A DNA stretch of 64,000 nucleotides from Trichococcus shcherbakoviae (GTDB taxonomy: Bacteria > Bacillota > Bacilli > Lactobacillales > Aerococcaceae), in contig NZ_OY762653.1 of NCBI RefSeq assembly GCF_963666195.1, positions 2,406,501-2,470,500 on the forward strand, given 5' to 3'. How positions within the stretch are numbered: position 1 is the stretch's first letter; every line of letters begins with the position of its first letter. The notes beneath the pieces were generated by a model. It saw nothing but the letters and a program-made list of their open reading frames with translations, did no database searches and was not told the DNA's origin. A program made the position numbers and the translations under genes. Below, one piece after another: positions 1-28,767 of the stretch.

Positions 1-1
1 A

Positions 2-394
2 GTTGCACCTATGCCAACTTTAAATAATGAGAAGAATTTCAATCCAAACTATATGAATGTGTTGATTGGAGAAGATTATAGGTTTCTTGTTTTAAATGAA
101 AATTTGTGTTTTGTAGAATATTTGGAAGAAGGAATGACAAAAAATATATTCAATCAGTATGTAGATAGTCCCAACAGTTTTGCACAAATCCGGATATTAT
201 ATATGAATTTAAAAAAATCAAGCTTACTTTTTAAAGTGAAAAATGCAATTCATTATACTTCAAGTTGTATTATAGCGAAAAAATATAAACATATAATTAC
301 TAAGTCTCCAAATAAGCTATTAACGGCTTTAATGTTTCCTTTTGGGTGTCTTCTAACAATGTATATTAGATACAATATACACTACAAAAGATAG
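2..394 (+). CDS. C-terminal part of a probable polysaccharide-locus glycosyltransferase (5' truncated)
   Basis: The frame is open from the first bases of the window, so the true start lies upstream and only about 130 C-terminal residues are visible. The visible part is charged, with a short hydrophobic stretch near the end (FPFGCLLTMYI) and a basic tail. This resembles the C-terminal region of family 2 glycosyltransferases from EPS loci, but no catalytic motif is in view, so the family is inferred from position. It stops 11 bp before the EpsG-like gene and is probably in the same operon. The region is very AT-rich. Confidence 0.5.
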   Translation, partial: VAPMPTLNNEKNFNPNYMNVLIGEDYRFLVLNENLCFVEYLEEGMTKNIFNQYVDSPNSFAQIRILYMNLKKSSLLFKVKNAIHYTSSCIIAKKYKHIITKSPNKLLTALMFPFGCLLTMYIRYNIHYKR

Positions 395-405
395 GGGATC
401 ATAAT

Positions 406-1548: not shown

Positions 1549-1573
1549 TATGAATATTTTAGAGGTGAAAAGT

Positions 1574-2698: not shown

Positions 2699-2702
2699 CG
2701 GC

Positions 2703-3251
2703 ATGGTTAAGCAATTAATCAAAGAGCTAATATATAGAATTAGAGGAGAGTATACCACGGAAAGACTTATTAAAATGGGGTTAAAAGTGGGTGATAATTT
2801 CAAACGACTAAATGGTGTTATTTTAGATCCGTCGCATTGTTGGTTAATTTCAATTGGAGATAATGTTACAATGGCTCCTAGAGTACATGTACTAGCTCAT
2901 GATGCAAGTACAAAAAATTTATTTAATTATACAAAAATTGGTTGTGTTAAGATTGGTGATAATGTTTTTATTGGTGCTGGAAGTATAATTTTACCTAATG
3001 TTACAATTGGGAATAATGTTATTCTCGGTGCTGGAAGTGTAATTTCGAAAAATATTCCTTCAAATAGTGTATATGCAGGTAATCCGGTCAAGTTCATCTG
3101 TCCATTACATGAATACCATGCAAAAAATGATGATTTAATAAAAACAAGACCACTTTATGGAGAAGAGTATACATTACGCAAAAATATTTCTGAAGAAAAA
3201 AAAAGGGAAATGATTGTTGAATTAGAAGATGGAATAGGATATGTAGAGTAG
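2703..3251 (+). CDS. Hexapeptide-repeat acyltransferase (left-handed beta-helix)
   Basis: This 182-residue protein has hexapeptide repeats through the middle (IGDNVTMAPRVHV, then IGDNVFIGAGSIILPNVTIG) and the closing YAGNPVKFI segment of the LbH acetyltransferase family. A histidine in the loop VLAHDAST is placed like the usual catalytic histidine. It probably O-acetylates a sugar of the repeat unit using acetyl-CoA. I chose the ATG at 2703 because AGGAG lies 7 bases upstream, inside the end of the preceding GT4 gene. An in-frame ATG at 2688 lacks such a site. Confidence 0.85.
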   Translation: MVKQLIKELIYRIRGEYTTERLIKMGLKVGDNFKRLNGVILDPSHCWLISIGDNVTMAPRVHVLAHDASTKNLFNYTKIGCVKIGDNVFIGAGSIILPNVTIGNNVILGAGSVISKNIPSNSVYAGNPVKFICPLHEYHAKNDDLIKTRPLYGEEYTLRKNISEEKKREMIVELEDGIGYVE

Positions 3252-3259
3252 GAGGAAAT

Positions 3260-4264
3260 ATGGATTCATTAGTGAGTATTATTGTACCAGTATACAATGT
3301 AGAAAAGTATATTAACAAATGTATAGATTCTATAATACATCAGACTTATAGAAATCTACAAATTATTTTAGTTGATGATGGGTCTACGGATAACTCAGCT
3401 AAAATAGTTGATGATTATGCAAAATACGATGCTAGGATAGAGGTGGTTCATAAGGCAAATGGTGGACTATCTGATGCTAGAAATTCAGGTTTAAAAATAT
3501 CTAAAGGAGCACATGTTTGCTTTATTGACAGTGATGACTACGTTGAACTTGATATGATAGAGAAGTCTTTAACCACAGCTATAGAAAAAAATGCAGATGT
3601 TGTAATTTTTGGCTTATATAATAAAGTATTAGATGAGAACGAAAAAGTAATTAATAATGAAGCTGTTATAATTGATATAAATAATCTAGATTCTATGATC
3701 AGTATTATTGGTTATGCTTGGAATAAATTATATAAAACATCCTATCTTAAAAATAACGAATATACTTTTCAAAAAGGCCTGTCCTTAGTTGAAGATATTG
3801 TTTTTAATGAATATGTATTAACTAATACAGATAATATTGAATATCTTAATGAACAATTATATAATTATATTAGTAGGAAACGTGAAACTTTAGTAAAACA
3901 ATATTATGACGATTCCTACGATTTACATATAATAGGCTTTAATGCTAGGAAAAAAGTTATATTTAAGCTATTTGGTTTCAATGATAATACTAGGGGAGTT
4001 GTAGCGAAGGCACATATAGATGGAATTCGTTATTGTTGTTCCAATATGTTTTTTTATAACAATAATCTAAAAATAACAAACAAATATGAAAATATAAAAA
4101 AAATACTCCTTGATAAAGTAACAACAGAGCAAATAAAATTATTTAAACCGCTAAATAAATCTGATAAGTTCATTAAAGCGTCTATCGTATTTAATATGCC
4201 TCTTCTCTTATGTTCTGCATATTATTTTAAATCTATAATAACAGTGAAAAAAAGAATTAGTTGA
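3260..4264 (+). CDS. Glycosyltransferase family 2
   Basis: This 334-residue GT-A fold transferase begins with VSIIVPVYNVEKYINKCIDS. It has the nucleotide-binding motif LVDDGSTDNS, the sugar-binding NGGLSDARNSG and the DxD-type metal motif IDSDDY. There is no obvious C-terminal membrane helix. GGAGG lies just before the ATG. It is the last gene of the first tight EPS gene group; a 437-bp gap with no recognisable gene follows. The sugar donor is unknown. Confidence 0.9.
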   Translation: MDSLVSIIVPVYNVEKYINKCIDSIIHQTYRNLQIILVDDGSTDNSAKIVDDYAKYDARIEVVHKANGGLSDARNSGLKISKGAHVCFIDSDDYVELDMIEKSLTTAIEKNADVVIFGLYNKVLDENEKVINNEAVIIDINNLDSMISIIGYAWNKLYKTSYLKNNEYTFQKGLSLVEDIVFNEYVLTNTDNIEYLNEQLYNYISRKRETLVKQYYDDSYDLHIIGFNARKKVIFKLFGFNDNTRGVVAKAHIDGIRYCCSNMFFYNNNLKITNKYENIKKILLDKVTTEQIKLFKPLNKSDKFIKASIVFNMPLLLCSAYYFKSIITVKKRIS

Positions 4265-4701
4265 AAAATCAAAAGAATATTCTGGTAAAATAATTTCATG
4301 TCTTACTTTATGGGGAATATATTCACATTTTTTTGGCTAATCTATCGAATTCGGTATCCCGGTTTATTGAAACATAGTTCGACGATAAGATTTTCTTTGG
4401 GGCATCAAAGAAGAAAAATGAATAATGTCAATGATCCGCGCGAATGAATATAGATCTGACCCGACAATTTGAAGAGAATGTGTTCCAGAAAAAGTTTCAG
4501 TACAACAGCTAAACTGGCTCCGTAATTAAGTGTATTCGGAGTAAAAATTTTCACCTCAAATGAAATACCGTTCCTATCACTATTAACAAAAAAACGGGTT
4601 TGACAATTTTTTTGTCATTATCCCTATAAAAGCAGGAAAAAATTTAACGTATGTCAAAGGTAAACTTTGAAAGTGCGAATACATAATATAGGATGGCAAT
4701 T
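4265..4701 (+). other. Intergenic stretch with no recognised gene
   Basis: About 430 AT-rich bases between the GT2 gene and wecB. I saw no ORF with a recognisable domain on either strand. A minus-strand stretch near 4450-4600 reads open for about 50 codons before a stop but matches nothing I know, so it may be a decayed remnant. A possible promoter sits near the right end. Confidence 0.4.
4600..4630 (+). promoter_or_regulatory. Possible promoter upstream of wecB
   Basis: TTGACA at 4600-4605 and TATAAA at 4625-4630, separated by 19 bases. The -35 hexamer is perfect but the spacer is longer than the usual 17, so this is tentative. It would drive wecB and the genes after it. Confidence 0.35.
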
Positions 4702-5847
4702 ATGAAAAAAATAAAAATAATGACGATTTTTGGTACTAGACCTGAAGCAATAAAGATGGCTCCACTTGTATTAGAAATTTGTAAACAATCAAATAGATTT
4801 GAATCGATAGTTACTGTGACTGCACAGCATAGACAAATGCTTGATCAAGTACTTGAAATTTTTAATATACAACCTGATTATGACTTAAATGTGATGAAAA
4901 GTAACCAAACTCTTTCTCAAATAACAGCAAATGTTTTGATTGGTCTTGAAGAAATAATAAAAGAGGCAAAACCAGATATTATTTTAGTTCATGGAGATAC
5001 AACAACAACTTTCGCGGCAGGAATTTCTGCTTTTTATAATAACATAAAAATTGGTCATGTAGAAGCTGGGTTACGTACATGGAATAAATATTCACCATAT
5101 CCAGAAGAAATTAACCGCCAAGTGACAGATGTGTTATCGGATATCTATTTCGCACCTACGAATCAAAGTGCTAATAATTTACTGGAAGAGAATCATCCGA
5201 AGGAGCATATTTATATAACTGGAAATACAGCAATAGATGCATTAAAAGAAACTGTAAAAGAGGATTATAAAAACCATGTTTTAGATAAAATATCGGAAAA
5301 TAATAAATTAATACTACTCACTATGCACAGACGTGAAAATCAAGGTGAACCTATGGAGAGAGTTTTTAGAGCGATTCGTTCGGTTGTTGATAAACACAAT
5401 GATGTCGAAGTGATTTATCCAGTTCATTTAAATCCTTTAGTTCAGAAAATAGCACTCAAAGAATTAGGAAATCATAAGCGGATTCATTTAATTGATCCAT
5501 TAGATGTAATTGATTTTCATAACATTGCTGCTAGAAGCTATATGATTATGAGTGATTCCGGTGGGGTACAAGAGGAAGCGCCATCATTAGGTGTTCCGGT
5601 TTTAGTTTTGAGAGACACAACCGAACGCCCTGAGGGCGTGAAAGCAGGAACATTAAAACTTGTTGGAACAAAAACACAGGATGTTATTTCAGCAATGACT
5701 GAATTGTTAGAAAATCCAGAATTACATGGGAAAATGGTAGAAAAAAAGAATCCGTACGGAGATGGAAAAGCAGCTAAACGAATTCTCGAAGCTATTGCCT
5801 TTGAATTTGGGATAAGTGATATCAGGCCATTGGATTTAAATGAATAG
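4702..5847 (+). CDS. wecB: UDP-N-acetylglucosamine 2-epimerase (non-hydrolysing)
   Basis: This cytoplasmic enzyme converts UDP-GlcNAc to UDP-ManNAc, a donor for many capsule and teichoic-type polymers. Visible signature blocks are FGTRPEAIKMAPLV at the N-terminus, VHGDTTTTFA, GHVEAGLRT, TMHRREN and SDSGGVQEEAP, all in family order. The length of about 381 residues is normal. An in-frame ATG at 4693 exists, but AGGAT lies 7 bases before the ATG at 4702, which I prefer. The gene implies a ManNAc-derived residue in the polymer. Confidence 0.95.
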   Translation: MKKIKIMTIFGTRPEAIKMAPLVLEICKQSNRFESIVTVTAQHRQMLDQVLEIFNIQPDYDLNVMKSNQTLSQITANVLIGLEEIIKEAKPDIILVHGDTTTTFAAGISAFYNNIKIGHVEAGLRTWNKYSPYPEEINRQVTDVLSDIYFAPTNQSANNLLEENHPKEHIYITGNTAIDALKETVKEDYKNHVLDKISENNKLILLTMHRRENQGEPMERVFRAIRSVVDKHNDVEVIYPVHLNPLVQKIALKELGNHKRIHLIDPLDVIDFHNIAARSYMIMSDSGGVQEEAPSLGVPVLVLRDTTERPEGVKAGTLKLVGTKTQDVISAMTELLENPELHGKMVEKKNPYGDGKAAKRILEAIAFEFGISDIRPLDLNE

Positions 5848-5938
5848 CTTTCTTTTTTGTCCTACGCCCTTTAGGGACGTGAAAAGTTGTAAAACGGTGT
5901 ATCATCTAATTAATTTAAGAAAATAAATTATAGGTAAT

Positions 5939-6997
5939 GTGGAGTTGATAAATATTAAACTGATGAGTAGAGAGCAAAAAATTAGATTAAAACTTTGTGG
6001 TAAGTATTTATTAAGCAATTCTAAAAGTGATAATTTTGAAAAATATCGAAACAAGAAAAAAATAATAGTTGCTTTAGCTGCTGACTATGGAAATTTAGGA
6101 GATGTTGCGATTACGTATGCCCAGACAAAATTTTTAAAAGATAGGTTTCCAACATATGAAATAATTGATTTTCCAATTAGTGAAACATTTACAGAAATAA
6201 AGTCGCTTAAGAAAATTTGTACTACTGAAGACATTATTACACTTGTTGGAGGAGGAAATACAGGCGATATGTATGATGATATTGAATATTGCAGACAGTT
6301 TTTAATTCAGCAGTTTCCTAAAAATAAGATAATAGCTTTCCCACAAACTATTGATTTTTCAGATACAGATTATGGGGAAAAGGCTTTACAGAAAGCAATC
6401 AAAGTATATAGTAAGCATAGGAATCTGACCTTGTCTGCCAGGGAAGAGAAATCCTTCAAGAAATATGAAGAATTATTTAAAAAGAACAAAGTAGTTTTTA
6501 CACCAGATATTGTACTATCACTTGATGAATCATTACCTCAGTATAAAAGAGAGGGTATAACTTTGTGCCTTCGAAGTGATGGCGAAAAATTTTTAGATAA
6601 GGTTACCGAGCTTAAGTTTATAGAAAAATTAGGTGAGAATTTCGATATTTTTTATCAAGATACACATATTGATAAAAATAGGATGTCAGTACAAGAACGG
6701 ATTGATGAGTTAAACAAAATTTGGGATGTATTCAAAAAATCAAGATTAGTAATAACTGATAGACTTCATGGCATGATCTTTTGTGCAATAACAAAGACTC
6801 CGTGCATCGCAATAGATAATTCAAATAGGAAAATATCTGGAGTTTATAATGGTTGGTTGAAGGATTCTAACTATATAGAACTGATGAAAGAAATTAACAT
6901 AGAAGAACTTCTAAAAAAAGCTGATTTTATGATGGCTAAAGATTTATCAAAGTTAAATACAATAAGTGTATCCCAAAGGTTTGATATCTTAATATAA
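5939..6997 (+). CDS. Polysaccharide pyruvyl transferase family protein
   Basis: This 352-residue protein probably transfers pyruvate from PEP to a sugar to form a pyruvyl ketal, adding negative charge to the polymer. Diagnostic blocks are YGNLGDVAITYAQ near residue 50, VGGGNTGDMYDD near 100 and the C-terminal TDRLHGMIFCAI, which are hallmarks of the family. The most likely start is GTG at 5939, after a weak TAGG. An internal ATG eight codons later has no good ribosome site. It lies between wecB and the flippase in an EPS locus, as EpsI/EpsO-type members often do. Confidence 0.85.
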   Translation: MELINIKLMSREQKIRLKLCGKYLLSNSKSDNFEKYRNKKKIIVALAADYGNLGDVAITYAQTKFLKDRFPTYEIIDFPISETFTEIKSLKKICTTEDIITLVGGGNTGDMYDDIEYCRQFLIQQFPKNKIIAFPQTIDFSDTDYGEKALQKAIKVYSKHRNLTLSAREEKSFKKYEELFKKNKVVFTPDIVLSLDESLPQYKREGITLCLRSDGEKFLDKVTELKFIEKLGENFDIFYQDTHIDKNRMSVQERIDELNKIWDVFKKSRLVITDRLHGMIFCAITKTPCIAIDNSNRKISGVYNGWLKDSNYIELMKEINIEELLKKADFMMAKDLSKLNTISVSQRFDILI

Positions 6998-7022
6998 TGG
7001 GAAGAAAGTATGATGAGAAGCA

Positions 7023-8552
7023 ATGAATTCAAATAGTAGAACTTATAATTCAATCAAAAACACTATATTTGGTTTTATGACGCAGGGATTAACCATAGTT
7101 CTTAGTTTTGTAACAAGAACTGTTTTTATTAAATATTTGTCCATTGAATACCTTGGAGTTAATGGGCTGTTTACTAACGTACTAACAATATTATCATTGT
7201 CTGAACTCGGTTTTGGAACAGCTATGATGTACAGCATGTATAAGCCTTTAGCCGAAAAAAATGAACATGCTTTAGAAGTGCTCATGAATTTTTATGCTAA
7301 AGTTTATCGTATTATTGGCCTTGTTGTTGGGGTTGTAGGTTTGACAATTATGCCTTTTTTAGATTATATAATTAAGGATACTCCGGGGATTAGTAACTTA
7401 AAATTAATTTACTTATTATTTTTGTTTAATTCAGTAGCATCATATTTTTTTTCGCATAAAAAATCAATAATTCAGGCAGATCAAAAGCAGTATATAATTG
7501 CTAAAATACACTTAGTATCTAGTATAATTAAGACGTTAGTTCAAATTATTATACTCATTATCACTGGTAACTATATTATTTTTCTTCTAGTTCAAATTTC
7601 TGTAACATTATTTGAAAATATTCTCATATCTTTAGAAGCAAACAAACTGTATCCATTTTTAAAATCTAAAAATAATTATCAATTAGAAAGAAAAGAAAAA
7701 AGTAGCATATGGACAAATGTCAAAGCTTTAATGATTTACAGAGTGGGAAGTGTTGCTTTAGATGGTAGCGATAATATAATTATCTCAACCTTTGTTGGTG
7801 TTGCAGCTGTTGGGACGTTGTCAAACTATACATTAATTATTGGAACAATAACCACTCTTTTGATGCTCTTATCGGACTCAGTACTTGCAAGTGTGGGTAA
7901 TTATGTCGTGTCAGAAAATGAAAAAAAACAAGAAGAACTCTTAGAATATATTACTTTTTTACATTTTGTAATGTATGGATTTTCATTTATAAGTATTGTT
8001 TTTTTGGTTAACCCTTTTATTGAAATATGGCTCAATTCATCATTTATATTGAATTTCTCAACAACAATAGTAATTGCTGTAAATTTTTATATATTAGGAA
8101 TGATGAATCCAATTTGGATGTTTAGAAGAACAAAAGGTCTATTTGTATATGGGAAGTACAGACCTATAATTTCAGCGCTAATCAATATTGTGGTCTCAAT
8201 CGTATTGGCGCAAAGATATGGATTAATAGGAGTACTACTTGGAACTACAGTGACTAGGGGTTTAACCAATGTTTGGTTTGATCCATACATTATATATAGA
8301 TACGGATTTAATACTTCAGTTAAAAAATATTATCTAAAAACTAGTTTGTATGCCGGTGTTCTTTTCTTACTTTTAATGCTTATGATGTTAATATTTTCAT
8401 TTTTACCTAGTACAGGGATTGGAATATTTTTGGTGAAATTATTACTTTGTGTAAGCATCACTCCCCTGATTATAATAATAGTTTTTAAGAATACAAAAGA
8501 ATATATATACTTTAAGTCTATATTTTTAAGAATGATGAATATAACTAAATGA
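7023..8552 (+). CDS. Wzx-type polysaccharide flippase
   Basis: This 509-residue membrane protein of the MOP/PST superfamily has about 12-14 hydrophobic helices spread over its length. It should flip the lipid-linked repeat unit across the membrane. The N-terminus (TIFGFMTQGLTIVLSFVTRTVFI) and the region near residue 50 (NVLTILSLSELGFGTAMMYSMY) are typical of O-antigen translocases of Gram-positive EPS loci. The ribosome site (GAGAAG) is weak. A second, different flippase lies at 56213, so the window encodes two export routes or a split locus. Confidence 0.88.
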   Translation: MNSNSRTYNSIKNTIFGFMTQGLTIVLSFVTRTVFIKYLSIEYLGVNGLFTNVLTILSLSELGFGTAMMYSMYKPLAEKNEHALEVLMNFYAKVYRIIGLVVGVVGLTIMPFLDYIIKDTPGISNLKLIYLLFLFNSVASYFFSHKKSIIQADQKQYIIAKIHLVSSIIKTLVQIIILIITGNYIIFLLVQISVTLFENILISLEANKLYPFLKSKNNYQLERKEKSSIWTNVKALMIYRVGSVALDGSDNIIISTFVGVAAVGTLSNYTLIIGTITTLLMLLSDSVLASVGNYVVSENEKKQEELLEYITFLHFVMYGFSFISIVFLVNPFIEIWLNSSFILNFSTTIVIAVNFYILGMMNPIWMFRRTKGLFVYGKYRPIISALINIVVSIVLAQRYGLIGVLLGTTVTRGLTNVWFDPYIIYRYGFNTSVKKYYLKTSLYAGVLFLLLMLMMLIFSFLPSTGIGIFLVKLLLCVSITPLIIIIVFKNTKEYIYFKSIFLRMMNITK

Positions 8553-8623
8553 TGATTTTGGAAAATATTGCATAATATAAATACAGATAATTCGAACATT
8601 ACACGTTCAGTTAGGAAGGTAAA

Positions 8624-9409
8624 ATGAAAAAACATTTAATTAAGATATACAATTTTGTAAAATACCATTTGGTTAAAGCTGAATTTTTTTTTGATTTTGA
8701 GAACAAACACAAGATTAAGGAATTTAAAAATAGACATTTGGGAGAAAAATGTTTCATCATAGGTAATGGCCCTAGTTTAAAGGTAGAAGATCTTGATAAA
8801 TTACAAAACCAAATAACTTTCTCCTGCAATATGATTTATAATACGTTGAGCGAAACAAAATGGAGACCATATTACTATTTTGTACACGACCCAAAGTATG
8901 TGCAGGAATTTAGTGAAGATATTCAAAAAGTACCTTGTAAGAATAAATTCATAGGATACTATGTTGACACTAAAACACAAGTAAAGAGTAAATTCAAAAC
9001 AAAAAAAAATCAATTACATTATTATATAGACAAAAAAACATTTTCTAACAAAATATCAAAGAATTTTAGTAAAGACGTTAGTAAAATAGTATATAGTAGC
9101 GGGAGCGTATCATATGGAATGCTCCAATTTGCTGTATATATGGGGTTCTCAGAGATTTATCTTATTGGATTTGATCATACTTTCTCGAATCAGATAAAGG
9201 ATGGAAAGTTAGAAAAAAGAGATACCAAAGATCACTTCAGTAATTATAATGTAATTCCTGGGAATATCGTTGATGTAGACTTAATTACACAGGGATTTAT
9301 TAATGCTAATAATTTTGCGAAAAAGAATAATATTAAAATTATGAATGCAACAAGAGGAGGAGAACTTGAAATTTTCCAACGAATTGATTTAAATGATGTT
9401 TTGAAGTAG
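8624..9409 (+). CDS. DUF115/6-hydroxymethylpterin diphosphokinase MptE-like fold protein
   Basis: This 261-residue protein carries GEKCFIIGNGPSL near residue 40. It also has YLIGFDHTFS near residue 185, which together are typical of the DUF115/MptE-like fold found in surface-glycan loci. Members are often annotated as putative sialyl- or ulosonyl-type glycosyltransferases, but this protein's activity is not known. A GGAAGG ribosome site precedes the ATG. It immediately precedes a decayed transposase. The aldolase at 11326 carries a related C-terminal domain (IIASGSSI ... LAGFDGYS), so the two may act in the same pathway. Confidence 0.65.
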   Translation: MKKHLIKIYNFVKYHLVKAEFFFDFENKHKIKEFKNRHLGEKCFIIGNGPSLKVEDLDKLQNQITFSCNMIYNTLSETKWRPYYYFVHDPKYVQEFSEDIQKVPCKNKFIGYYVDTKTQVKSKFKTKKNQLHYYIDKKTFSNKISKNFSKDVSKIVYSSGSVSYGMLQFAVYMGFSEIYLIGFDHTFSNQIKDGKLEKRDTKDHFSNYNVIPGNIVDVDLITQGFINANNFAKKNNIKIMNATRGGELEIFQRIDLNDVLK

Positions 9410-10166
9410 GCTTCTTAAGCTTGCCAACAACATCAGTAATGTCAAAATAGCCAAAAACTTACTTGCCGATAGAGATTGTCTTGGTTTTGGCAAAGGGAAA
9501 GTTGTGATGGACAGAGGGTTTTTCCATGAGGAAAACATCAACCCCTTACACCAGAATCAATTGAAATTTCTAATGACCACAAAAGTATCGCTTAAGTATG
9601 TGCAACAGGAGCTGAACAAAGTTAAGGGAAGCATACGCACACGCGCCAATTATAATGCAACCTATCAACTCTACAGCCTTACTGCGGTGATAGAATATAC
9701 TTATTCACAAGAACACCCGTATAAAGGCGATGTAATCAAAGGAAAACGGTACATGTATCTTCATCTTTATTTTAGTGGTAAAAAATTACTGGAATGGAGC
9801 ACGAGGATTATTTCAATTCACTGCTTGATACCTGGATTCCCGGAAATACATAACTAGGAACAAATGAAAAATCCGTCAAATCAACGATTTAACAGTATTT
9901 CGAGGTCCAATCCGCCTAGTTATGCAATTCATGTGTAGCTAGTTGGAAACACAGTGATATCAAGGTTTTACTCGACCTAATTACGACTTTTCCGGGAATG
10001 TAGGATGCATCAAGCCGGGATTTTTCAAAACTATACGATTCAGTCTCTCTTGGATAAACTTGATATCATAGCATGTATTGAGCATCCGGGTTACGACCAC
10101 ATAAGGGTCGGAGAGGTTCTCACAAAGCAAATTTATGAAGCACCGAGTATCACCCCGCCAGCATAG
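9410..10166 (+). pseudogene. Decayed IS1634-type transposase
   Basis: Fragments of an IS4-superfamily (IS1634-like) transposase lie in order but in broken frames. First comes VKIAKNLLADRDCLGFGKGKVVMDRGFF cut by lesions (the catalytic VVMDRGF motif is at about 9503). A continuous piece follows to about 9850 with SIRTRANYN and GKRYMYLHLYF. Then HEDYFNSLLDTWIP appears in a shifted frame near 9800. The C-terminal piece SLLDKLDIIACIEHPGY near 10045 is followed by a stop at 10164. The N-terminal third is missing. It interrupts the EPS locus between the DUF115-like gene and kdsB. Confidence 0.75.
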
Positions 10167-10555
10167 TTAGGTATTGGCGGGAAATCCAGGGATAATTACT
10201 TTAGAATCTTACCAGGTAATCTAAAAGAATTCTTGCCTTCAAAAATAAAGTATAAAATCAGTTGGAATATATACCACATGAAAAGCCAACTCTTTTTGTG
10301 ATTCCGACATGTCTAAGGATTTTTAGTTCTTCAAATACAGATTTTAATGGATTTGGTATTTTTGGGTATTAATAAAAATACACCAAGTGACAGGATGTTT
10401 TTCTTATACATTTAACTGTCAAGATGTCTATTTAATTACTGAAAAAGGAATACACATAAAGGCTCACTCAATTTTTCACACTGCGAAATTCGAGAGATTA
10501 ATTGTCAAATTAGTTTGAAGTAGTGATATGTAGAATGAATTAATGGAGGAATAAT
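10167..10555 (+). other. Intergenic stretch, no gene seen
   Basis: About 390 AT-rich bases after the transposase remnant. I see no coding pattern. It probably contains the right end of the decayed IS and the promoter of the kdsB cassette; TTGTCA at 10502 with TATGTA at 10527 is a weak candidate. Confidence 0.35.
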
Positions 10556-11293
10556 ATGAAAATTATAGGAATAATACCAGCCAGATATAGATCATCACGT
10601 TTTCCTGGAAAACCGTTATCAGATATTATGGGGAAACCGATGATATGGTGGGTATATAATCAAGTCAAGAAAGTAAAAAAAATCGATGAAGTTTATGTTG
10701 CTACAGATGATGAAAGAATTTTAGAAGTATGTAACTCACTAAATATAAATGTAATCATGACATCCGAAAGTCATCAAACTGGAACAGATAGAATAGGAGA
10801 AGTAGCAAGAAGAATTCCGGCAGATTTATATATTAATATACAAGGTGATGAACCTTTGATTGAACCAGAAACTGTTGAGAAAGCTATCGAACCTTTTATA
10901 AACGATGATGCTTTATTAGTTTCAAATTTAATGAGTGAAATAAATGATCCAGTTGATGTGGTGAATTTTACAGTACCCAAAGTACTAACGAATAATCAAA
11001 ATGAGGGTATTTATTTAACCAGGAGTACTGCTCCTTACCCAAAAGGACGAATTGAATTTAAATACTATAAGCAAGTTTGTGTTTATGGATTCAAACCTGA
11101 AGCATTAGAATTTTATTGCAATACTGCAAGAGGAAAGCTAGAAGAAATTGAAGACATCGAAATATTGAGGTTTATTGAAAATGGTATTGACGTAAAATAT
11201 GTTGAGGTCAATACAAATAGTATAGCGGTTGATACTCCTAACGATTTAGAAAAAGTAAGGAACTTTGTGAGAGAAAACAATGTAATTTTGTGA
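10556..11293 (+). CDS. kdsB: 3-deoxy-manno-octulosonate cytidylyltransferase-like protein (CMP-Kdo synthetase family)
   Basis: KdsB enzymes activate Kdo or related 3-deoxy-2-ulosonic acids with CTP to give the CMP-sugar. This 245-residue protein has the family opening IIPARYRSSRFPGKPL, MIWWVYNQV, YVATDDERI, and the metal/nucleotide block NIQGDEPLIEPE near residue 95. The length equals that of classical KdsB. GGAGG lies just before the ATG. Kdo is a Gram-negative LPS sugar, so a member in a Gram-positive EPS locus probably activates a different ulosonic acid. It sits 32 bp upstream of an aldolase and then a KDG-kinase-like gene, forming a compact three-gene cassette. Confidence 0.85.
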   Translation: MKIIGIIPARYRSSRFPGKPLSDIMGKPMIWWVYNQVKKVKKIDEVYVATDDERILEVCNSLNINVIMTSESHQTGTDRIGEVARRIPADLYINIQGDEPLIEPETVEKAIEPFINDDALLVSNLMSEINDPVDVVNFTVPKVLTNNQNEGIYLTRSTAPYPKGRIEFKYYKQVCVYGFKPEALEFYCNTARGKLEEIEDIEILRFIENGIDVKYVEVNTNSIAVDTPNDLEKVRNFVRENNVIL

Positions 11294-11325
11294 ATATTTG
11301 AAAAAAATTAAAAAGGAGATATATT

Positions 11326-12915
11326 ATGGTAATTAGCGTTTTAGATTGTACATTAAGAGATGGCGGTTATATTAATCAATGGCAGTTTGGTAATAAGAAT
11401 ATATCTTATATTTTAAAGAATCTTGTAGATGCAGAAGTAGATATTATTGAATGCGGTTATATTACGGCAAAAACAGATTATGTTGATGGGAGTTCTCAGT
11501 ACGATTCAGTAGATAGAATTTCTCAGTTTATTCCTGCAAACAGGAAAAAAAGTATGTTCGTAGGTATGATTAATTACAACGAATATACCTTAGAAAACCT
11601 TCCTATATGTGATAATTCTTCAGTTGATGGTATCAGAGTGACTTTTCATAAGAAAGATATGCAAAAAGCCTTGAAATATTGTGATGAAATATCGAAAAAA
11701 GGTTACAAAGTCTTTGTTCAACCGATGGTATCAGTTTCATATTCTGATGACGAATTTTTGGAATTAATTAGAGGAATAAACTTATTAAATCCTTATGCAG
11801 TCTATCTTGTTGATAGTTTTGGTGTTATGAAAAGAAAAGACTTGCTGAGGCTATTTTATTTAATTGATCATAACTTAAGCTCTGATATTAAAGTTGGATA
11901 TCATTCTCATAACAATCTACAACTTGCATATTCGAATGCACAGAGTTTAGTAGATTTGAAAATAAAAAGAGATTTGATAATTGATTCTAGCGTTTTTGGT
12001 ATGGGGCGTGGTGCCGGTAATTTGAATACCGAATTGTTTATTGAATACCTCAATGAGAATAATGATTCTCAATACAAACAAAAGCCTATATTACAGATTA
12101 TTGACGAGGTATTAAATAATATATATTTAACAAATTATTGGGGTTACTCATTACCTCATTATATATCTGCAACGCATAATTGTCATCCTAACTATGCGTC
12201 TTATCTAGCCGAAAAAAATACCTTAACGATTGAAGACATTAGTAATATATTAGAAAATATTAGCCTAGAAAAGAAGAATGGATTTGACAAAGATTATATG
12301 GATTCACTTTATAAGACTTATCAATCAATACAAGAAAATACGATTGAATCCATAATAGAACTAGAAAAAGCTTTTAGGGATAAAAATATTGTAATAATCG
12401 CATCAGGAAGCAGTATTAACAAAAACACAGCAGAAATCAAACACGAAACGGAGAAGAATAATACCGTTACAATTGCTATTAATTTTATTCCTGATCATAT
12501 CACTCCAGATTATATTTTTGTCGGAAATTTACGCAGATTCAAGGAAGTCTATGGAAAGACTCAGGCAAAAATTATTGTTACATCAAATATCCATGTTCCT
12601 ACAAACAATGTCAAAATAGTAAGATACATAGATTTGATAAATGATGAAGAAGCAGTTTCTGATAATTCAGGACTTATGTTCATTAAATTAATGATACTGC
12701 TGAAAGCTAACAAAGTTTCATTAGCAGGATTTGATGGCTATTCCTATGACTCCTTATCAAATTATTCGGTGGAAGATCTAGCTTTTATAAAATCAAATGA
12801 AACCGTAGATTTATTGAATGGCGGTATTCATAAAGTGATTAAGGAATTTTCTAAACAAATACCTGTACAGTTTATAACGAAATCAAAGTATGAGCTAGAA
12901 GAGGTGGGAAAATGA
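11326..12915 (+). CDS. DRE-TIM (HMGL-like) aldolase with C-terminal DUF115-like domain
   Basis: This 529-residue two-domain protein starts with LDCTLRDGGYINQWQFG, the DRE-TIM metallolyase signature with the catalytic Arg-Asp pair. It has VGYHSHNNLQLAYSNA near residue 190, with the metal-binding HxH. Relatives include 4-hydroxy-2-oxovalerate aldolases and isopropylmalate synthases. From about residue 345 a second domain follows (NIVIIASGSSIN, HITPDYIFVGN, KVSLAGFDGYS). It resembles the DUF115-like fold of the protein at 8624. AAAAAGGAG precedes the ATG, and the stop overlaps the next start (ATGA). I infer that it makes or cleaves a 2-oxo-3-deoxy sugar acid used by the neighbouring KdsB-like enzyme. 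Confidence 0.75.
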   Translation: MVISVLDCTLRDGGYINQWQFGNKNISYILKNLVDAEVDIIECGYITAKTDYVDGSSQYDSVDRISQFIPANRKKSMFVGMINYNEYTLENLPICDNSSVDGIRVTFHKKDMQKALKYCDEISKKGYKVFVQPMVSVSYSDDEFLELIRGINLLNPYAVYLVDSFGVMKRKDLLRLFYLIDHNLSSDIKVGYHSHNNLQLAYSNAQSLVDLKIKRDLIIDSSVFGMGRGAGNLNTELFIEYLNENNDSQYKQKPILQIIDEVLNNIYLTNYWGYSLPHYISATHNCHPNYASYLAEKNTLTIEDISNILENISLEKKNGFDKDYMDSLYKTYQSIQENTIESIIELEKAFRDKNIVIIASGSSINKNTAEIKHETEKNNTVTIAINFIPDHITPDYIFVGNLRRFKEVYGKTQAKIIVTSNIHVPTNNVKIVRYIDLINDEEAVSDNSGLMFIKLMILLKANKVSLAGFDGYSYDSLSNYSVEDLAFIKSNETVDLLNGGIHKVIKEFSKQIPVQFITKSKYELEEVGK

Positions 12916-13937
12916 CAGTTGTAACATTTGGAGAGATACTTTTGAGATTAGCTTCTCCAGGATACACAAGATTACTTCAAAACTCCAGTTTTGATGCAAC
13001 TTTTTGTGGAGGTGAGGCTAATGTCGCTGTATCGTTAGCAGAATTTGGAGTAGAGTCAAAGTTCGTTTCTAGGGTTCCAAATGGTCCAATCGGTCAAGGA
13101 GCCATTAACTCTTTGAGATATTTTGGAGTGCAAACATCTGAAATAGTTCGTGGAGGAGATCGATTGGGACTTTTTTATCTAGAGAAAGGAGCTAGTCAGC
13201 GTCCATCAAAAGTGATTTATGATAGAGCTTATTCATCTTTTGCTAATTCGGTACTGTCAGACTTTGATTGGAAAGAGATATTTAAAGATGCTGAATGGTT
13301 CCACTTTACTGGTATCAGTCCAGCGTTAGGTGTAAATATCAATGATATTTGTTTAGAAGCATGTAAAAATGCAAAAGAATTAGGAATAACTATTAGTTGT
13401 GATTTGAATTATCGGAGTAATTTATGGTCGCCTAGTGACGCTAAAAAGAGTATGGAAAAATTAATGGAGTATGTAGATGTCTGTATTGCAAATGAAGAGG
13501 ATGCTGAAAATGTTTTTGGTATTAAGGCAGCAGACTCTGATGTGAATATGGGGGAAATAAATAATTCATCATATTTAGAAGTTGCGAAAGAACTTCATGA
13601 TAGATTTAATTTCAAGTATGTAGCGATTACGTTAAGAACAAGTATAACGGCAAATGATAATAACTGGGCAGGGATGCTTTTTGGTTCAGCAGACCAAACT
13701 AGTAATTTTTCCAACAGCTATAATGTCCATATTGTTGATAGGGTTGGTGCTGGAGATAGCTTTGGGGCAGGATTAATTTATGGGTTCATTAATGATATGC
13801 CTTTGCAAGAAATAATTGATTTTGCAGCAGCTTCGAGTTGTTTAAAACACTCTATTGAAGGTGATTTTAATAGAGTTACGGTAGAAGAAGTAAGGAATCT
13901 TGTTAATGGCAATAGAACAGGTAGAGTATCAAGGTGA
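12912..13937 (+). CDS. PfkB-family sugar kinase, 2-dehydro-3-deoxygluconokinase-like
   Basis: This 341-residue ribokinase-fold enzyme has TFGEILLRLASPG at the N-terminus, the first PfkB signature CGGEANVAVSLAEFG near residue 32 and the second, DRVGAGDSFGAGLIYGF, near residue 275 with the catalytic Asp. The sequence is closest in style to KDG kinases (KdgK), which phosphorylate 2-keto-3-deoxygluconate. It overlaps the aldolase by 4 bp, so translation is probably coupled. In this context it may phosphorylate a ulosonic acid or a precursor rather than serve pectin catabolism; that is inference. Confidence 0.8.
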   Translation: MTVVTFGEILLRLASPGYTRLLQNSSFDATFCGGEANVAVSLAEFGVESKFVSRVPNGPIGQGAINSLRYFGVQTSEIVRGGDRLGLFYLEKGASQRPSKVIYDRAYSSFANSVLSDFDWKEIFKDAEWFHFTGISPALGVNINDICLEACKNAKELGITISCDLNYRSNLWSPSDAKKSMEKLMEYVDVCIANEEDAENVFGIKAADSDVNMGEINNSSYLEVAKELHDRFNFKYVAITLRTSITANDNNWAGMLFGSADQTSNFSNSYNVHIVDRVGAGDSFGAGLIYGFINDMPLQEIIDFAAASSCLKHSIEGDFNRVTVEEVRNLVNGNRTGRVSR

Positions 13938-13966
13938 TATTTCCACCTGATTCTATATTGGTATGT

Positions 13967-13999
13967 GGCACAGACTAGAAAATTTAGCCTGTGCCTTTT
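13967..13999 (+). terminator. Rho-independent terminator after the kinase gene
   Basis: GGCACAG at 13967-13973 pairs with CTGTGCC at 13989-13995, with an inner CTA/TAG extension, followed by TTTT. It ends the AT-rich EPS operon and separates it from galU. Confidence 0.8.
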
Positions 14000-14127
14000 A
14001 TGTTATCACTGTAACAGACTTAACTTTTTCTAAAAATACGATGACATATAAATGTGGTTATTATAGGTAACCGCTATTTGGCGCTTACAATAAAAAACGT
14101 ACTAACCTTAAGGAGCTAATAGCTATT

Positions 14128-15054
14128 ATGAAGAATGTTAGAAAAGCAGTCATCCCAGCAGCAGGTTTCGGCACGCGTTTTTTACCGGCTACGAAGGCGA
14201 TGGCGAAGGAGATGTTACCGATCGTTGATAAGCCGACGATTCAATTCATCGTCGAAGAAGCCATCGCATCGGGCATCGAAGAGATCCTGATCGTCACAGG
14301 TAAAAGCAAGCGCGCCATCGAGGACCATTTCGATTCCAATGTTGAGCTGGAGATGAACTTGCGTGAAAAAAGTAAGTATGAGCTGTTGGCATTGGTACAA
14401 GAGACGACAGGAGTTCGTATTCACTTCGTGCGCCAAGCCTATCCGTTGGGATTAGGCCATGCCGTCCTGCAGGCGAAAGCCTTCGTAGGCGATGAGCCAT
14501 TCGTAGTCATGCTAGGCGACGATTTGATGCAGGATGAAGTGCCATTGGCTAAGCAACTGATCAATGCCTATGAGAGGACGCATGCATCGAATATCGCAGT
14601 TATGGCGGTGCCTCAGGAAGAGACATCCAAGTACGGTATCATCGATATCGACTCCGAATTGGAACCAGGACTGTACAATGTCAGCCGTTTCGTGGAAAAA
14701 CCGAAAGCCGAAGAAGCGCCTAGCAACTTGGCCATCATCGGCCGTTACCTGTTGACGCCGGAAATCTTCGAAATTCTTGAGAACCAAACTCCTGGAGCAG
14801 GTGGCGAGATCCAACTGACCGATGCCATCGATACCCTGAACCAAACCCAACGCGTCTTCGCAAAACGATTCGAAGGAACTCGTTACGATGTTGGTGACAA
14901 GTTCGGCTTCATGACCACCAGTATTAACTACGGCCTGACCCATCCGGAAGTCAAAGACAAACTGAAGAACTTCATCATCGCGCTTGGGAAAGAACTGTCT
15001 GGGGAGAGCGAAAATGATATTATAGTGGCTGGGACAACCGTTTCAGTAATGTAG
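14128..15054 (+). CDS. galU: UTP-glucose-1-phosphate uridylyltransferase
   Basis: GalU makes UDP-glucose, the precursor of glycolipids, teichoic-acid decoration and EPS. The 308-residue protein has [23 protein letters not shown], cut here to its core [14 protein letters not shown], then [29 protein letters not shown] and [13 protein letters not shown], all typical. AAGGAG is 12 bases before the ATG. Base composition changes abruptly here, from about 30 percent GC upstream to near 48 percent. The last 15 or so residues (after LGKELSG) look like an unusual tail, perhaps from an indel near the original stop. Confidence 0.95.
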
Positions 15055-16244: not shown

Positions 16245-16404
16245 TAACTACAAATTACTTGGGGGCAGATGATTAAACACTGTTTTGCCGAATACAATTG
16301 ACTGTGCGCAGTCATTGATGCGATGGGAATGGTTGAAGCGAAATGCTCACTCCTGAACAACAGCAAGGGTGAATAATCGACAGCAACTATTTGTTTGAAT
16401 TTAA

Positions 16405-16420
16405 ATGAAAACGCTTTAAT
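16405..16420 (+). promoter_or_regulatory. cre-like box upstream of small paralog 2
   Basis: ATGAAAACGCTTTAAT, 47 bases before the ATG at 16452, is the closest of the three boxes to the CcpA cre consensus. Confidence 0.5.
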
Positions 16421-16451
16421 AAAATCGGGATTATTGGAGGAATACTATCAC

Positions 16452-16793
16452 ATGTCAAATTTTAAGATGGTAGCAACATACTGCGGTGTCAGCAGATATG
16501 ACAAGAATTTTTTCGTATATTACCTGAATACGGATGAGAACCTACGCCGTGAGTATGTATTCAATACGGATGAGGATGCAAATAATTTCAACAAGGCCCT
16601 CGAGAACCTGACCGTCTTCATGAAAGACATTCCCGTACGCAAAAAAGAAGTCTATCATCAAGCCTTCTTGGATTTGCTGCTTAAAGAAGTTGACCATAAA
16701 CTGTCCATCCGCACAAACCCAGGTGGGTCTGCTGCAGCCGCAGCAGCAATCCCAGCAGCGCTGTTATCAGCGATCGAACAAAGGCTATCATAA
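16452..16793 (+). CDS. Small orphan protein, paralog 2 of 3
   Basis: This 113-residue protein begins MSNFKMVATYCGVSRYDKNFFV and is closely similar to the gene at 17088 across YCGVxxYDKxFFVxYL, REYxFNTDEDAxNF, ALENLTxFMKxxPxRKKExYHQ and LLxEVDHKL. The frame is open from 16395, but GGAGG 11 bases before the ATG at 16452 sets the start; the same 11-base spacing occurs in paralog 3. The C-terminus ends in an alanine-rich tail (AAAAAAIPAALLSA). Function unknown; a short soluble protein. Confidence 0.72.
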   Translation: MSNFKMVATYCGVSRYDKNFFVYYLNTDENLRREYVFNTDEDANNFNKALENLTVFMKDIPVRKKEVYHQAFLDLLLKEVDHKLSIRTNPGGSAAAAAAIPAALLSAIEQRLS

Positions 16794-17087: not shown

Positions 17088-17396
17088 ATGCCAAATTTTA
17101 AACTAGTTGCACCTTACTGTGGTGTCCGGAAATATGACAAAAGATTTTTCGTCAACTACCTGGAGACAGAAGAGAACATACGCCGCGAGTATATATTCAA
17201 TACGGATGAAGACGCAAGTAATTTCAGCCATGCTTTAGAGAACCTGACCGCCTTCATGAAAAACGTTCCTATACGCAAGAAAGAGGCTTACCATCAAGAA
17301 TTTCTGGATCTGCTGCTCAGAGAAGTCGACCATAAATTGAACGTTCGCGCAAATCCTGTCGAACCTGCTGCAGCCGCATCAGCAATCGAAGCGTAA
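17088..17396 (+). CDS. Small orphan protein, paralog 3 of 3
   Basis: This 102-residue protein begins MPNFKLVAPYCGVRKYDKRFFV and is nearly collinear with paralog 2, including TDEDASNF, FMKNVPIRKKEAYHQEF and LLREVDHKLNVRANP, then a short alanine-rich end. GGAGG is 11 bases before the ATG, exactly as in paralog 2. There is no membrane segment or signal. I do not recognise the family. It is followed by a strong hairpin and then the trypsin-fold gene. Confidence 0.72.
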   Translation: MPNFKLVAPYCGVRKYDKRFFVNYLETEENIRREYIFNTDEDASNFSHALENLTAFMKNVPIRKKEAYHQEFLDLLLREVDHKLNVRANPVEPAAAASAIEA

Positions 17397-17457: not shown

Positions 17458-17704
17458 GCTGTTGTGACCCATCGAAGAGCTGTCCGCCGGATAGCCGAAT
17501 TCCGAACGAGCGCGGCCAGTCCGGGGCGCTGTGGTACATCATACTTGTTCCCCAGTAAGATTTCCTTGGTTAAGGATCCTATCGATTCGGAATATGTGTC
17601 TTTGAGCCCGGAGCTTTCGCCGTGATGTGCGACAGTCTTCCCATTCAAACAGCGCACATACTCGATTATTTCAAAAAATAATGCATGATAAAAGGAGCAA
17701 AAAT

Positions 17705-18520
17705 GTGGAATTAACCTTAAGAGAAATACTGTCTTATGGAACGGTCAGAATCGAATGCACGGGGAAAAATAATCATGTTACGGCGGGGACAGGATATGTA
17801 GTTGAGTTCGAAAAGGATGGAGATACAAATATCTCCATCACGGCGCTCATCACCAATAAGAGTGTGATCAAAGGTGCCGAAAAAGGTAGGCTTGTTTTTA
17901 CGCAAGAAACTGAAGATGGTGCGCCTGATGATAGAAATCACCATAAAGTATCGTTAAGCCAATTCGAAAAAAAGTGGGTGATGCATCCGGATCCCGGTGT
18001 CGATTTGTGCGCGTTGCCGATAGATAAGCTTGTCCTGAAAGCAGAAGCCAAGGGCATCCAGCTGTTTTATCCAGTGATTACGATGGACTTGATTCCAACA
18101 GAGAAACAACTCGATGAATTGGATACAATGGAGACAATTACCACTGCAGGTTATCCTGATGGGTTATGGGACGCGGTCAACAATAGACCCGTTTTAAGAA
18201 GTGGTGTGACAGCTACGCACCCAATAATGGATTATAATGGCAAGCAAGAATTCCTGATAGATGCTCCCACCATGCCAGGCACGAGCGGTTCACCGGTTTT
18301 CATCATCGATGAGAATGGTTATATCGATCGCGACGGAAATTACTATCCGAATGAAGACCGCATCCTGTTCTTGGGCACGCTCTCTGCAGGTCCGCATGCA
18401 GCACCGGAAGGCCTACCGAAGAAGAGTGATATTACCGCGACTGTTTCACCACACCTGCCGAGTAACCTCGGACTGGTGATCAAATCCAGCCGTATTTTGG
18501 AACTGGCAGCATTATTTTGA
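17705..18520 (+). CDS. Trypsin-fold (S1-like) protein with a substituted catalytic histidine
   Basis: This is a cytosolic-looking 271-residue protein without a signal peptide. It has GTGYVVEF then TALITNKSVIKGAEKG, where trypsin-like peptidases have TNKHVVKGA. The catalytic His is therefore replaced by Ser. The Asp candidate (PGVDLCALPI) and the nucleophile motif (PGTSGSPVFII) are intact. I chose GTG at 17705 because AAAGGAG lies 7 bases upstream; the longer frame from 17627 lacks a ribosome site. It may be a pseudo-protease that binds peptides, or it may use another base. It stands alone between the small paralogs and a hairpin-repeat array. Confidence 0.72.
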   Translation: MELTLREILSYGTVRIECTGKNNHVTAGTGYVVEFEKDGDTNISITALITNKSVIKGAEKGRLVFTQETEDGAPDDRNHHKVSLSQFEKKWVMHPDPGVDLCALPIDKLVLKAEAKGIQLFYPVITMDLIPTEKQLDELDTMETITTAGYPDGLWDAVNNRPVLRSGVTATHPIMDYNGKQEFLIDAPTMPGTSGSPVFIIDENGYIDRDGNYYPNEDRILFLGTLSAGPHAAPEGLPKKSDITATVSPHLPSNLGLVIKSSRILELAALF

Positions 18521-23827: not shown

Positions 23828-23874
23828 ACGGAGCTTTATTTAATTACGATGTTACTAGAAATGGGGGCGTGTTT

Positions 23875-28520: not shown

Positions 28521-28529
28521 CGCCAAAGG

Positions 28530-28700
28530 TGTGCCCAGCTCCGATGAACGCTCTCTTCATCGGAGCACATTTCGTGCTGGGAAGCCTAACTCCTTTGAAA
28601 ATGTGTTTGCCGGAGCACGGTCATTTTCCCGTAGCCCAACTACGGCGAGGCCCGCCTGACCGGAGGAGACAACCCGCTCGGGATCCTCTTCTCCGGCGCA
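28530..28700. repeat. Diverged CTCCGG hairpin-repeat unit (copied at 30873-31043)
   Basis: CTCCGATGAACG pairs with TTCATCGGAG; CTCCTTTGAAAATGTGTTTG is followed by CCGGAG; CTACGGCGAGGCC and TCTCCGGCG follow. The loops keep the GAANATG and GCGAGGCC wording of the family. Confidence 0.65.
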
Positions 28701-28715
28701 AAAACCGAACGAAAG

Positions 28716-28767
28716 CACGCTGCCATCCGCATTTTATTCATCAATGCGGATGGCAGCGTGTTTTTTT
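28716..28767 (+). terminator. Terminator of the GT28-like gene (copied at 31059-31110)
   Basis: A perfect 16-bp stem (CACGCTGCCATCCGCA with its complement at 28745-28760) is followed by seven T. Because it lies in the direct repeat, an identical copy stands at 31059-31110, upstream of the dehydratase gene. Confidence 0.9.

Follow-up and report, generated by a model that had tools for sequence, protein, structure and literature searches.

The window analysed here, a stretch of 64,000 nucleotides from the Trichococcus shcherbakoviae contig NZ_OY762653.1 (positions 2,406,501 to 2,470,500 of the forward strand), contains a cassette of three genes at 10556-13937 within an exopolysaccharide (EPS) locus. 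The cassette is predicted, with a probability of approximately 60%, to make a cytidine monophosphate (CMP)-activated 3-deoxy-2-ulosonic acid, where a pyruvate-type DRE-TIM aldolase would replace the phosphoenolpyruvate (PEP)-dependent synthase KdsA or NeuB.

The three closely packed genes, which had been recognized in the initial annotation, were confirmed as plus-strand open reading frames (ORFs) with matching family identities. The first, at 10556-11293, encodes a KdsB-like cytidylyltransferase of 245 residues (CTP_transf_3, 173.6 bits), the second, at 11326-12915, a two-domain aldolase of 529 residues, and the third, at 12912-13937, a PfkB kinase of 341 residues (PfkB, 116 bits), which resembles 2-keto-3-deoxygluconate (KDG) kinase. 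By the ORF coordinates, the gap between the kdsB-like and aldolase genes is 32 bp, and the aldolase and kinase genes overlap by 4 bp. The sequence-level support for the pathway consists of the gene content and order, the recurrence of the pairing, the absence of KdsA from this genome, an altered segment in the KdsB homologue, and the grouping of the kinase.

Proposed Pathway

In the first step, the aldolase would condense pyruvate with a short aldose, free or phosphorylated, yielding a 2-oxo-3-deoxy sugar acid. The first guess for the product, a somewhat doubtful one, is a six-carbon acid resembling KDG, since the kinase that accompanies the aldolase is of the KDG kinase kind. In the second step, the KdsB homologue would couple the acid to cytidine triphosphate (CTP), as suggested by its homology and its conserved catalytic residues. 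In the third step, the GT42-like protein encoded at 8624-9409 would move the ulosonic acid into the EPS repeat. The kinase might phosphorylate the aldehyde acceptor or the ulosonic acid itself, or it might clear surplus acid as 2-keto-3-deoxy-6-phosphogluconate (KDPG). Among capsules, a hexulosonic acid precedent is a 4-deoxy-2-hexulosonic acid in Escherichia coli K3, as given by a title cited in PMC10433991. A 3-deoxy-pentulosonic acid is reported for Klebsiella K38.

Recurrence of the Aldolase-Cytidylyltransferase Pairing

An alignment of three sequences (A2) was scanned against one genome per species, which gave at least 592 stretches and at least 582 relatives, and the best 80 were kept. 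Together with L004, L023, and L024, these made up 83 loci, all found through the aldolase alone. The aldolase was recovered as a main-cluster ORF in 81 loci, and the remaining two (L085 and L097) were left out of the counts. Among the best 80 of the at least 582 relatives, the nearest named relatives of the cassette are Bacillota. These relatives, the EpsG-type EPS genes, and the rarity of KdsB in the class (4 of 398 genomes) suggest that the window genome is that of a Gram-positive member of the Bacillota.

The aldolase directly adjoins a CTP_transf_3 enzyme in 51 of the 81 loci, where the neighbor belongs to the KdsB cluster in 25 cases and to a NeuA/PseF-like cluster in 26. Representatives of the latter score 65.6 bits with Pfam and 67 bits with TIGR03584 (cut-off 206). 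Many gut bacteria are among the carriers of the pairing. When the gene order was shuffled within each locus, the mean number of such adjacencies was 12.2 and the maximum was 23, and the count of 51 was never attained in 2000 shuffles. Three further partners also exceeded their shuffled maxima: a haloacid dehalogenase (HAD) phosphatase, adjacent 22 times (mean 5.3, maximum 12), a thiamine diphosphate (ThDP) enzyme of the acetolactate-synthase kind, adjacent 11 times (mean 3.3, maximum 9), and the kinase, adjacent 6 times (mean 1.8, maximum 5). The gaps between the CTP_transf_3 and aldolase genes range from −47 to +83 bp with a median of −4, where gene starts were set at the first possible codon and overlaps may be overstated.

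The same order of KdsB, aldolase, and kinase, whose occurrence in other Firmicutes had been raised by the initial annotation, is present in Proteocatella sphenisci (L025), with identities of 71, 58, and 60%, respectively; this excludes a gene order unique to the present genome. An aldolase-kinase pair stands at a contig end in L141. Other arrangements include the annotated order of aldolase, KdsB, and HAD in two Leisingera plasmid records, the order of HAD, aldolase, and KdsB in one genome of the class, and that of aldolase, CTP_transf_3 (59.6 bits), and HAD_2 (58.3 bits) in another. As a control, 18 loci with a shorter, non-fused aldolase (L005-L022), drawn from 55 genomes matched, were searched by tblastn with up to 8 members per partner cluster, and no KdsB, NeuA, HAD, kinase, or ThDP partner was found within about 1.5 kb on each side; the control is narrow, with 17 of the 18 loci from one family.

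The absence of the PEP-condensing synthase also recurs. A KdsA search was carried out on 18 genomes with KdsB and the aldolase, namely the window genome and 17 of the 30 KdsB-cluster loci (16 with adjacent pairs and L093 with the pair within three genes). No KdsA-grade match was obtained in 13 of the 18, the window genome included (all at most 101 bits), and both KdsA control genomes were recovered in the search. The proposal in the initial annotation that an aldolase coupled to a KdsB homologue takes the place of the PEP-condensing synthase is therefore supported, at the level of gene content, by the adjacency in 51 of the 81 loci and by these 13 genomes. Similarly, among 25 genomes searched for NeuB, ten have an adjacent NeuA-aldolase pair, and eight of these (L026, L028, L029, L032, L035, L040, L043, and L067) gave no NeuB match better than E 1e-12; many of the searched genomes are metagenome bins and may be incomplete, and L029, L035, and L043 are titled as strains.

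Two-Domain Aldolase

The Pfam HMGL-like match of the aldolase (62.5 bits, cut-off 29) covers residues 4-252 only. It lies in a DRE-TIM barrel domain encoded at 11326-12276 (+), and a second domain of approximately residues 318-529, overlooked in the initial annotation, is encoded at 12277-12912 (+). The TLRDGG and HxHxN motifs of the barrel are invariant in a 75-row alignment, where R11, D12, H193, H195, and N197 are present in all 75 aldolases. The residue that follows TLRDGG, at position 15, is Tyr in 74 of the rows and Phe in one. (Alignment A3 was made without L023, L047, L049, L056, L065, and L088, and alignment A7 also without L024.)

The best solved relatives of the aldolase are the putative aldolase 3dxi and 4-hydroxy-2-oxovalerate aldolases. 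With the latter enzymes (DmpG/BphI), it shares the barrel family and the TLRDG and HxH motifs, and the structures 8ih7, 1nvm, and 4lrs are matched at E of about 1e-28. However, the scores with the corresponding models are far below the cut-offs (76.8 against 286 bits for TIGR03217; 88.4 against 229 for PRK08195), the fusion aldolase carries an extra C-terminal domain, and a Pfam scan of 20 window ORFs gave no aldehyde dehydrogenase. Moreover, Tyr15 aligns with a His of 1nvm and 8ih7, which we take to be the catalytic base in those enzymes. The metal and pyruvate site is kept in the fusion aldolase, and residue 15 departs from the 4-hydroxy-2-oxovalerate aldolases. The enzyme is predicted to be a pyruvate-dependent synthase of a 3-deoxy-2-oxo sugar acid. 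In three Leisingera records, it is annotated only as "aldolase catalytic domain-containing protein".

The C-terminal domain was compared by hhalign with A4, a profile of the GT42-like ORF at 8624-9409 and 14 relatives. The match has a probability of 94.8 and an E-value of 5.2e-8 over 127 columns, whereas six control comparisons gave E-values of 0.08-0.5. Because the match is partial, extending to about residue 155 of 212 in the domain and 186 of 261 in the GT42-like ORF, the domain is regarded as GT42/MptE-like kin in its Rossmann-like part only and is not called a transferase. It possibly binds CMP, CTP, or a CMP-sugar.

Partner Settings on the Aldolase Tree

The partners were mapped on a 79-row aldolase tree, which was computed by a quick method with Shimodaira-Hasegawa-like approximate likelihood ratio supports only, and from which L023, L049, and L065 were left out as too short. 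KdsB lies within three genes in 28 rows, a NeuA-like enzyme in 24, and a ThDP enzyme within two genes in 13. Transferases of the clusters expected to use CMP-sugars (GT42-like, GT52, and polysialyltransferase-like) occur in 29 of the 53 loci in which a cytidylyltransferase lies no more than three genes away, versus 0 of the 13 in which a ThDP enzyme lies no more than two genes away (Fisher p 2.7e-4, uncorrected for kinship), where one representative of each cluster was tested. Both partner classes act on 2-oxo acids, and an aldolase that makes a 2-oxo acid would therefore fit both settings.

The frequent GT42-, GT52-, or polysialyltransferase-like proteins, together with the 26 adjacent NeuA/PseF-like cytidylyltransferases, liken these loci to the sialic, pseudaminic, and legionaminic acid pathways (NeuB/PseI, NeuA/PseF). 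The difference lies in the synthase: a strong NeuB is absent from eight of the ten NeuA-aldolase genomes, and the sole NeuB match in the window genome is a 3-deoxy-D-arabino-heptulosonate 7-phosphate (DAHP) synthase.

The tree also bears on an alternative in which the 2-oxo acid made by the aldolase ends up as a branch or side chain on another sugar and KdsB acts several steps later. In a clade of 15 rows (support 99), no cytidylyltransferase lies within three genes, and a ThDP enzyme lies within two genes in 10 of these rows; some loci of this clade have aminotransferase- or CDP-sugar-type genes nearby, as named by eye, and the lineage of the window kinase is found in both settings. These observations would agree with such a branch. 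However, the window aldolase is located elsewhere in the tree with KdsB directly upstream, and the EPS ORFs inspected showed no ThDP enzyme, which makes the alternative unlikely for the present cassette.

Three further ThDP loci lie outside the 15-row clade. The fusion aldolase gene is located directly 3' of the ThDP enzyme gene in L046, L052, L055, L058, L059, L062, L066, L070, and L076; the ThDP representative from L046 matches acetolactate synthases, and some such loci have CDP-sugar-type genes by eye. YerE couples pyruvate to a CDP-sugar, which offers an analogy for the joining of the aldolase product to a CDP-sugar. The ThDP-aldolase loci look like a branched-sugar pathway.

KdsB-Like Enzyme and the Missing Kdo Pathway

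The KdsB-like enzyme, whose best solved relative is the KdsB 1gq9, scores above the cut-offs of three NCBIfam models (294 against 255 bits for PRK13368; 169.8 against 155.2 for TIGR00466; 279.5 against 193 for PRK05450.1-5) and below those of two further models (224 against 234 for PRK05450.1-3; 183 against 281 for the equivalog PRK05450.1-1). D98, R156, and D226 are present in 30 of 30 KdsBs of aldolase loci, R10 and K19 in 29 of 30 (one row is incomplete), and the window KdsB likewise has D98 and D226. By motif reading, K19, D98, and D226 appear to correspond to K19, D95, and D219 of the KdsB described in PMC3149649.

The sugar side of the enzyme differs. The segment [KR]HxGxYxY, which presumably contacts 3-deoxy-D-manno-octulosonic acid (Kdo) in KdsB, reads KQVCVYGF in the window enzyme. 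The full segment is present in none of the 31 KdsBs of aldolase loci, the window included, and in all five solved KdsBs inspected (of 13 matched; two are near-identical) and both KdsA-linked KdsBs of the class. The altered segment is located in the C-terminal domain, which binds Kdo according to PMC3149649. With the catalytic residues kept and the sugar-site segment altered, the enzyme is predicted to make a CMP-ulosonic acid.

The genome, a single contig of 2.93 Mb with a completeness of 99.85%, was searched for the remaining genes of the Kdo pathway. It has a single KdsB-grade gene, the other CTP_transf_3 match being one of 26.5 bits in a 461-residue frame. The initial annotation had noted that no KdsA gene adjoins the kdsB-like gene, and this extends to the whole genome: a verified KdsA (441 bits to PRK05198), which as a query gave 611 bits in its own genome and 356 bits in a second control genome, found as its best match one of 80 bits and 29% identity in a 345-residue DAHP synthase frame. 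Over the whole genome, the best match to the KdsC model is 36 bits (cut-off 107) and that to the KpsF/KdsD model 44 bits (cut-off 204). The two PF00793 matches are DAHP-synthase-type ORFs of about 340 residues, one with a ferredoxin-like domain. The only match to the NeuB model, 30.7 bits and formally above the Pfam cut-off, lies inside the ORF with the ferredoxin-like domain, which is also the frame that the KdsA query matched.

In the class, KdsB scores above the cut-off in only 4 of 398 genomes, the window genome and three others, the third of which (G373) is counted only if neighboring stretches are included. Two genomes of the class (L130 and L131) have kdsB together with kdsA (441 and 423 bits to PRK05198, cut-off 242), a KdsC-family HAD (176 and 162 bits), and a KpsF/KdsD-family isomerase (334 and 333 bits), where the last two cut-offs are those given above. 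Because kdsA, kdsB, kdsC, and kdsD stand together in these two genomes, the aldolase of the window can be regarded as occupying the place of kdsA. In L132, KdsB is present, and kdsA, kdsC, and kdsD were not found among the ORFs listed. A kdsA-kdsB-kdsC-kdsD set has also been published for Bacillus coahuilensis m2-6 (PMC4744853). KdsB in Gram-positive bacteria is therefore already known, a point on which the initial annotation needs correction, and the unusual feature is the predicted replacement of KdsA by an aldolase.

Compared to the classical Kdo pathway (KdsD-KdsA-KdsC-KdsB), the cassette is alike in its location in a polysaccharide locus and in the predicted KdsB-type activation of a 3-deoxy-2-ulosonic acid with CTP, and the HAD phosphatase often adjoins the aldolase as KdsC accompanies KdsA (the 22 adjacencies in 81 loci). 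It differs in that the window genome has neither KdsA nor, at the level of the cut-offs, KdsC or KdsD, in that an aldolase and a KDG-kinase-like gene accompany KdsB, and in the altered sugar-site segment. If the KdsB homologue activated ordinary Kdo, whether scavenged or synthesized elsewhere, the role of the aldolase and kinase would lie in another sugar of the polymer. The scores above TIGR00466 and PRK13368 are consistent with this, as is the occurrence of the aldolase without KdsB and with NeuA-like and ThDP partners. However, the lack of a KdsA-grade gene in a one-contig genome, the low KdsC and KpsF/KdsD scores, the direct adjacency of KdsB and the aldolase in 25 of the 81 loci, and a segment unlike that of the Kdo-type KdsBs inspected argue against activation of ordinary Kdo, which is considered to be slightly less likely than the branched-sugar alternative.

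KDG-Kinase-Like Gene

The best solved relative of the window kinase is the 2-keto-3-deoxygluconate kinase 2afb (382.6 bits, residues 1-341), and the kinase scores below the KDG kinase equivalogs NF041633 (538.9 against 700 bits; a fusion model of which only the kinase half can be matched), NF041332 (232 against 440), and NF052444 (42.5 against 400). Among 348 genomes of the phylum, 68 contain relatives at E ≤ 1e-70, with many full-length homologues of 50-61% identity. Of 29 kinase relatives with readable neighbors, the window's own locus excluded, 24 adjoin an Eda homologue (blastp) and one (L141) adjoins the fusion aldolase. In a 38-row kinase tree, eight of the nine aldolase-linked kinases, that of the window among them, fall into one group (support 90), and the Polaribacter kinase (L091) stands apart; several branches, including that of the window, are long, and the grouping is tentative. 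The group covers both settings, with KdsB or NeuA and with ThDP enzymes. The window kinase thus resembles the Eda-linked KDG kinases of the Entner-Doudoroff side in its closest solved relative, 2afb, and differs from them in its link to the fusion aldolase instead of Eda and in its clustering with other aldolase-linked kinases.

The kinase was also considered as a universal partner of the aldolase and as the sole KDG kinase of the cell, and both were rejected. It lies within four genes in only 7 of the 81 loci, compared with 26 for the HAD phosphatase; both lie within four genes in none of the 81 (hypergeometric P 0.058), and exclusivity is not established. A homologue of 35% identity is encoded at 597442-598425 of the genome beside an IclR-family gene. 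Because an Eda-type aldolase and this second KDG-kinase-like gene exist elsewhere in the genome, the window kinase is an extra copy.

It is improbable, and the least likely of the alternatives, that the kinase and aldolase form a catabolic pair (the kinase giving KDPG, the aldolase splitting it to pyruvate and glyceraldehyde 3-phosphate) placed in the EPS locus by chance, as the KDG kinase kind and the 24 Eda-linked relatives might suggest, since the genome encodes an Eda of its own, a second KDG-kinase-like gene lies next to an IclR-family regulator, the aldolase-linked kinases cluster in eight of nine cases, and the aldolase is tied to cytidylyltransferases.

Points against the Aldolase-Based Pathway

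Several results weigh against the pathway in which the aldolase supplies the acid to the KdsB homologue. Its core idea is supported by comparative genomics, and the enzyme activities and substrates are predictions. The loci are related by descent, and the shuffles and the Fisher test treat them as independent. KdsA is also present, at 267-360 bits, in 5 of the 18 KdsB-aldolase genomes (L078 Akkermansia, L081 and L101 Gastranaerophilales, L091 Polaribacter, and L100 Marinifilaceae), and NeuB is present in 2 of the 10 NeuA-aldolase genomes (L031 and L042). In 14 of the 79 tree rows, no cytidylyltransferase lies within three genes and no ThDP enzyme within two, and the polysialyltransferase-like representative scores below its Pfam cut-off. 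The altered KdsB segment is not exclusive to aldolase loci, where 6 of the 31 KdsBs retain the His, and the stand-alone KdsB of L132 has Gln at that position. Because Tyr replaces the His of the 4-hydroxy-2-oxovalerate aldolases, the aldol chemistry is an assumption. A KDG kinase acting in the known direction gives no help in making free KDG. Finally, no phosphatase gene adjoins the window cassette among the ORFs, and a phosphorylated product would therefore need a housekeeping phosphatase.

EPS Locus and Candidate Transferase

The EPS locus starts upstream of the window, with a Bac_transf priming transferase at L140:14580-15194, and contains an EpsG-type protein, glycosyltransferases, WecB, a pyruvyl transferase-like ORF, and a flippase-like protein. 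On the plus strand of the window, the EpsG-type protein, the likely polymerase, is encoded at 406-1548 (EpsG, 151.8 bits), a WecB-type UDP-N-acetylglucosamine 2-epimerase at 4693-5847 (TIGR00236, 515.6 bits, above the cut-off), the polysaccharide pyruvyl transferase-like ORF at 5939-6997 (PS_pyruv_trans, 128.9 bits), and the flippase-like membrane protein, a long hydrophobic ORF, at 7023-8552 (MatE, 23.3 bits, slightly below the cut-off of 24.9).

The GT42/MptE-like ORF at 8624-9409 (+; MptE-like, 66.6 bits) is the candidate CMP-ulosonic acid transferase; it was overlooked in the initial annotation and belongs to the picture of the cassette. The profile A4 matches CstII sialyltransferases at E 1.7e-6 over approximately residues 2-170 of the 259-residue chain, and the WaaZ Kdo transferase model gives 26 bits against a cut-off of 200 on this ORF. 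By these profile matches, the ORF qualifies as a homologue of CstII-type GT42 enzymes.

The cassette forms the 3' end of a low-GC stretch of EPS genes. Window bases 1-14000 have a GC content of 29-33%, against 44% from 14001 onward, which suggests horizontal gain of the EPS stretch. The boundary gene, where the GC content changes from 33% to 44%, encodes GalU at 14128-15054 (+; TIGR01099, 375 bits, above the cut-off).

Other Features of the Window

A second polysaccharide region lies about 35 kb downstream of the cassette at 49450-59690 (+), where chain-length-, tyrosine kinase-, LytR-, and flippase-like ORFs and glycosyltransferases were identified by eye from the ORF list. A protein of 985 residues with a SIR2_2 domain (Pfam 75 bits; PADLOC ThsA 87 bits) is encoded at 23869-26826 (+) in a low-GC stretch (30%), and its gene is a candidate anti-phage gene. 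A Trypsin_2-like protein encoded at 17627-18520 (+) matches the PADLOC candidate defence family PDC-S45 (311 bits), and upstream of its gene lie two small, similar ORFs (16395-16793 and 17088-17396).

Repeats with a period of 189 bases, with up to 14 copies in one family listing, form several short arrays at 18.6-19.2, 33.3-34.0, 40.4-40.7, 42.0-42.4, 43.9-44.6, and 45.6-46.1 kb. A 300-base duplicate of 100% identity (28467-28766 and 30810-31109) flanks a DDE transposase gene (28923-30674, −). A repetitive protein with GINT1_N-like domains, encoded at 59791-63902 (−), is split in two frames around 18-base repeats (62479-62824), where one spacing is 17; the tract is possibly phase-variable or possibly a sequencing error.

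Implications

Ulosonic acids on surface glycans are usually predicted through KdsA or NeuB. Our search found no published account of the aldolase-cytidylyltransferase pairing among the matches listed, which is weak evidence of novelty given that the subscription literature was mostly outside the search. Tentatively, at slightly less than even odds, the fusion aldolase may represent a third route to the ulosonic acids of surface polymers, in addition to those through KdsA and NeuB. It would be a pyruvate aldolase that depends on a metal and carries a nucleotide-binding-like domain of its own. Combined with KdsB-like and PseF-like activators, it would lead to several CMP-ulosonic acids of short or unusual form, and combined with ThDP carboligases, to branched sugars; it would be widespread in gut Bacillota and present in some other phyla. 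If this is true, synthesis would gain a useful enzyme, a metal-dependent aldolase that makes sugar acids from pyruvate, and many gut bacteria may bear acidic ulosonic sugars that annotation has overlooked.

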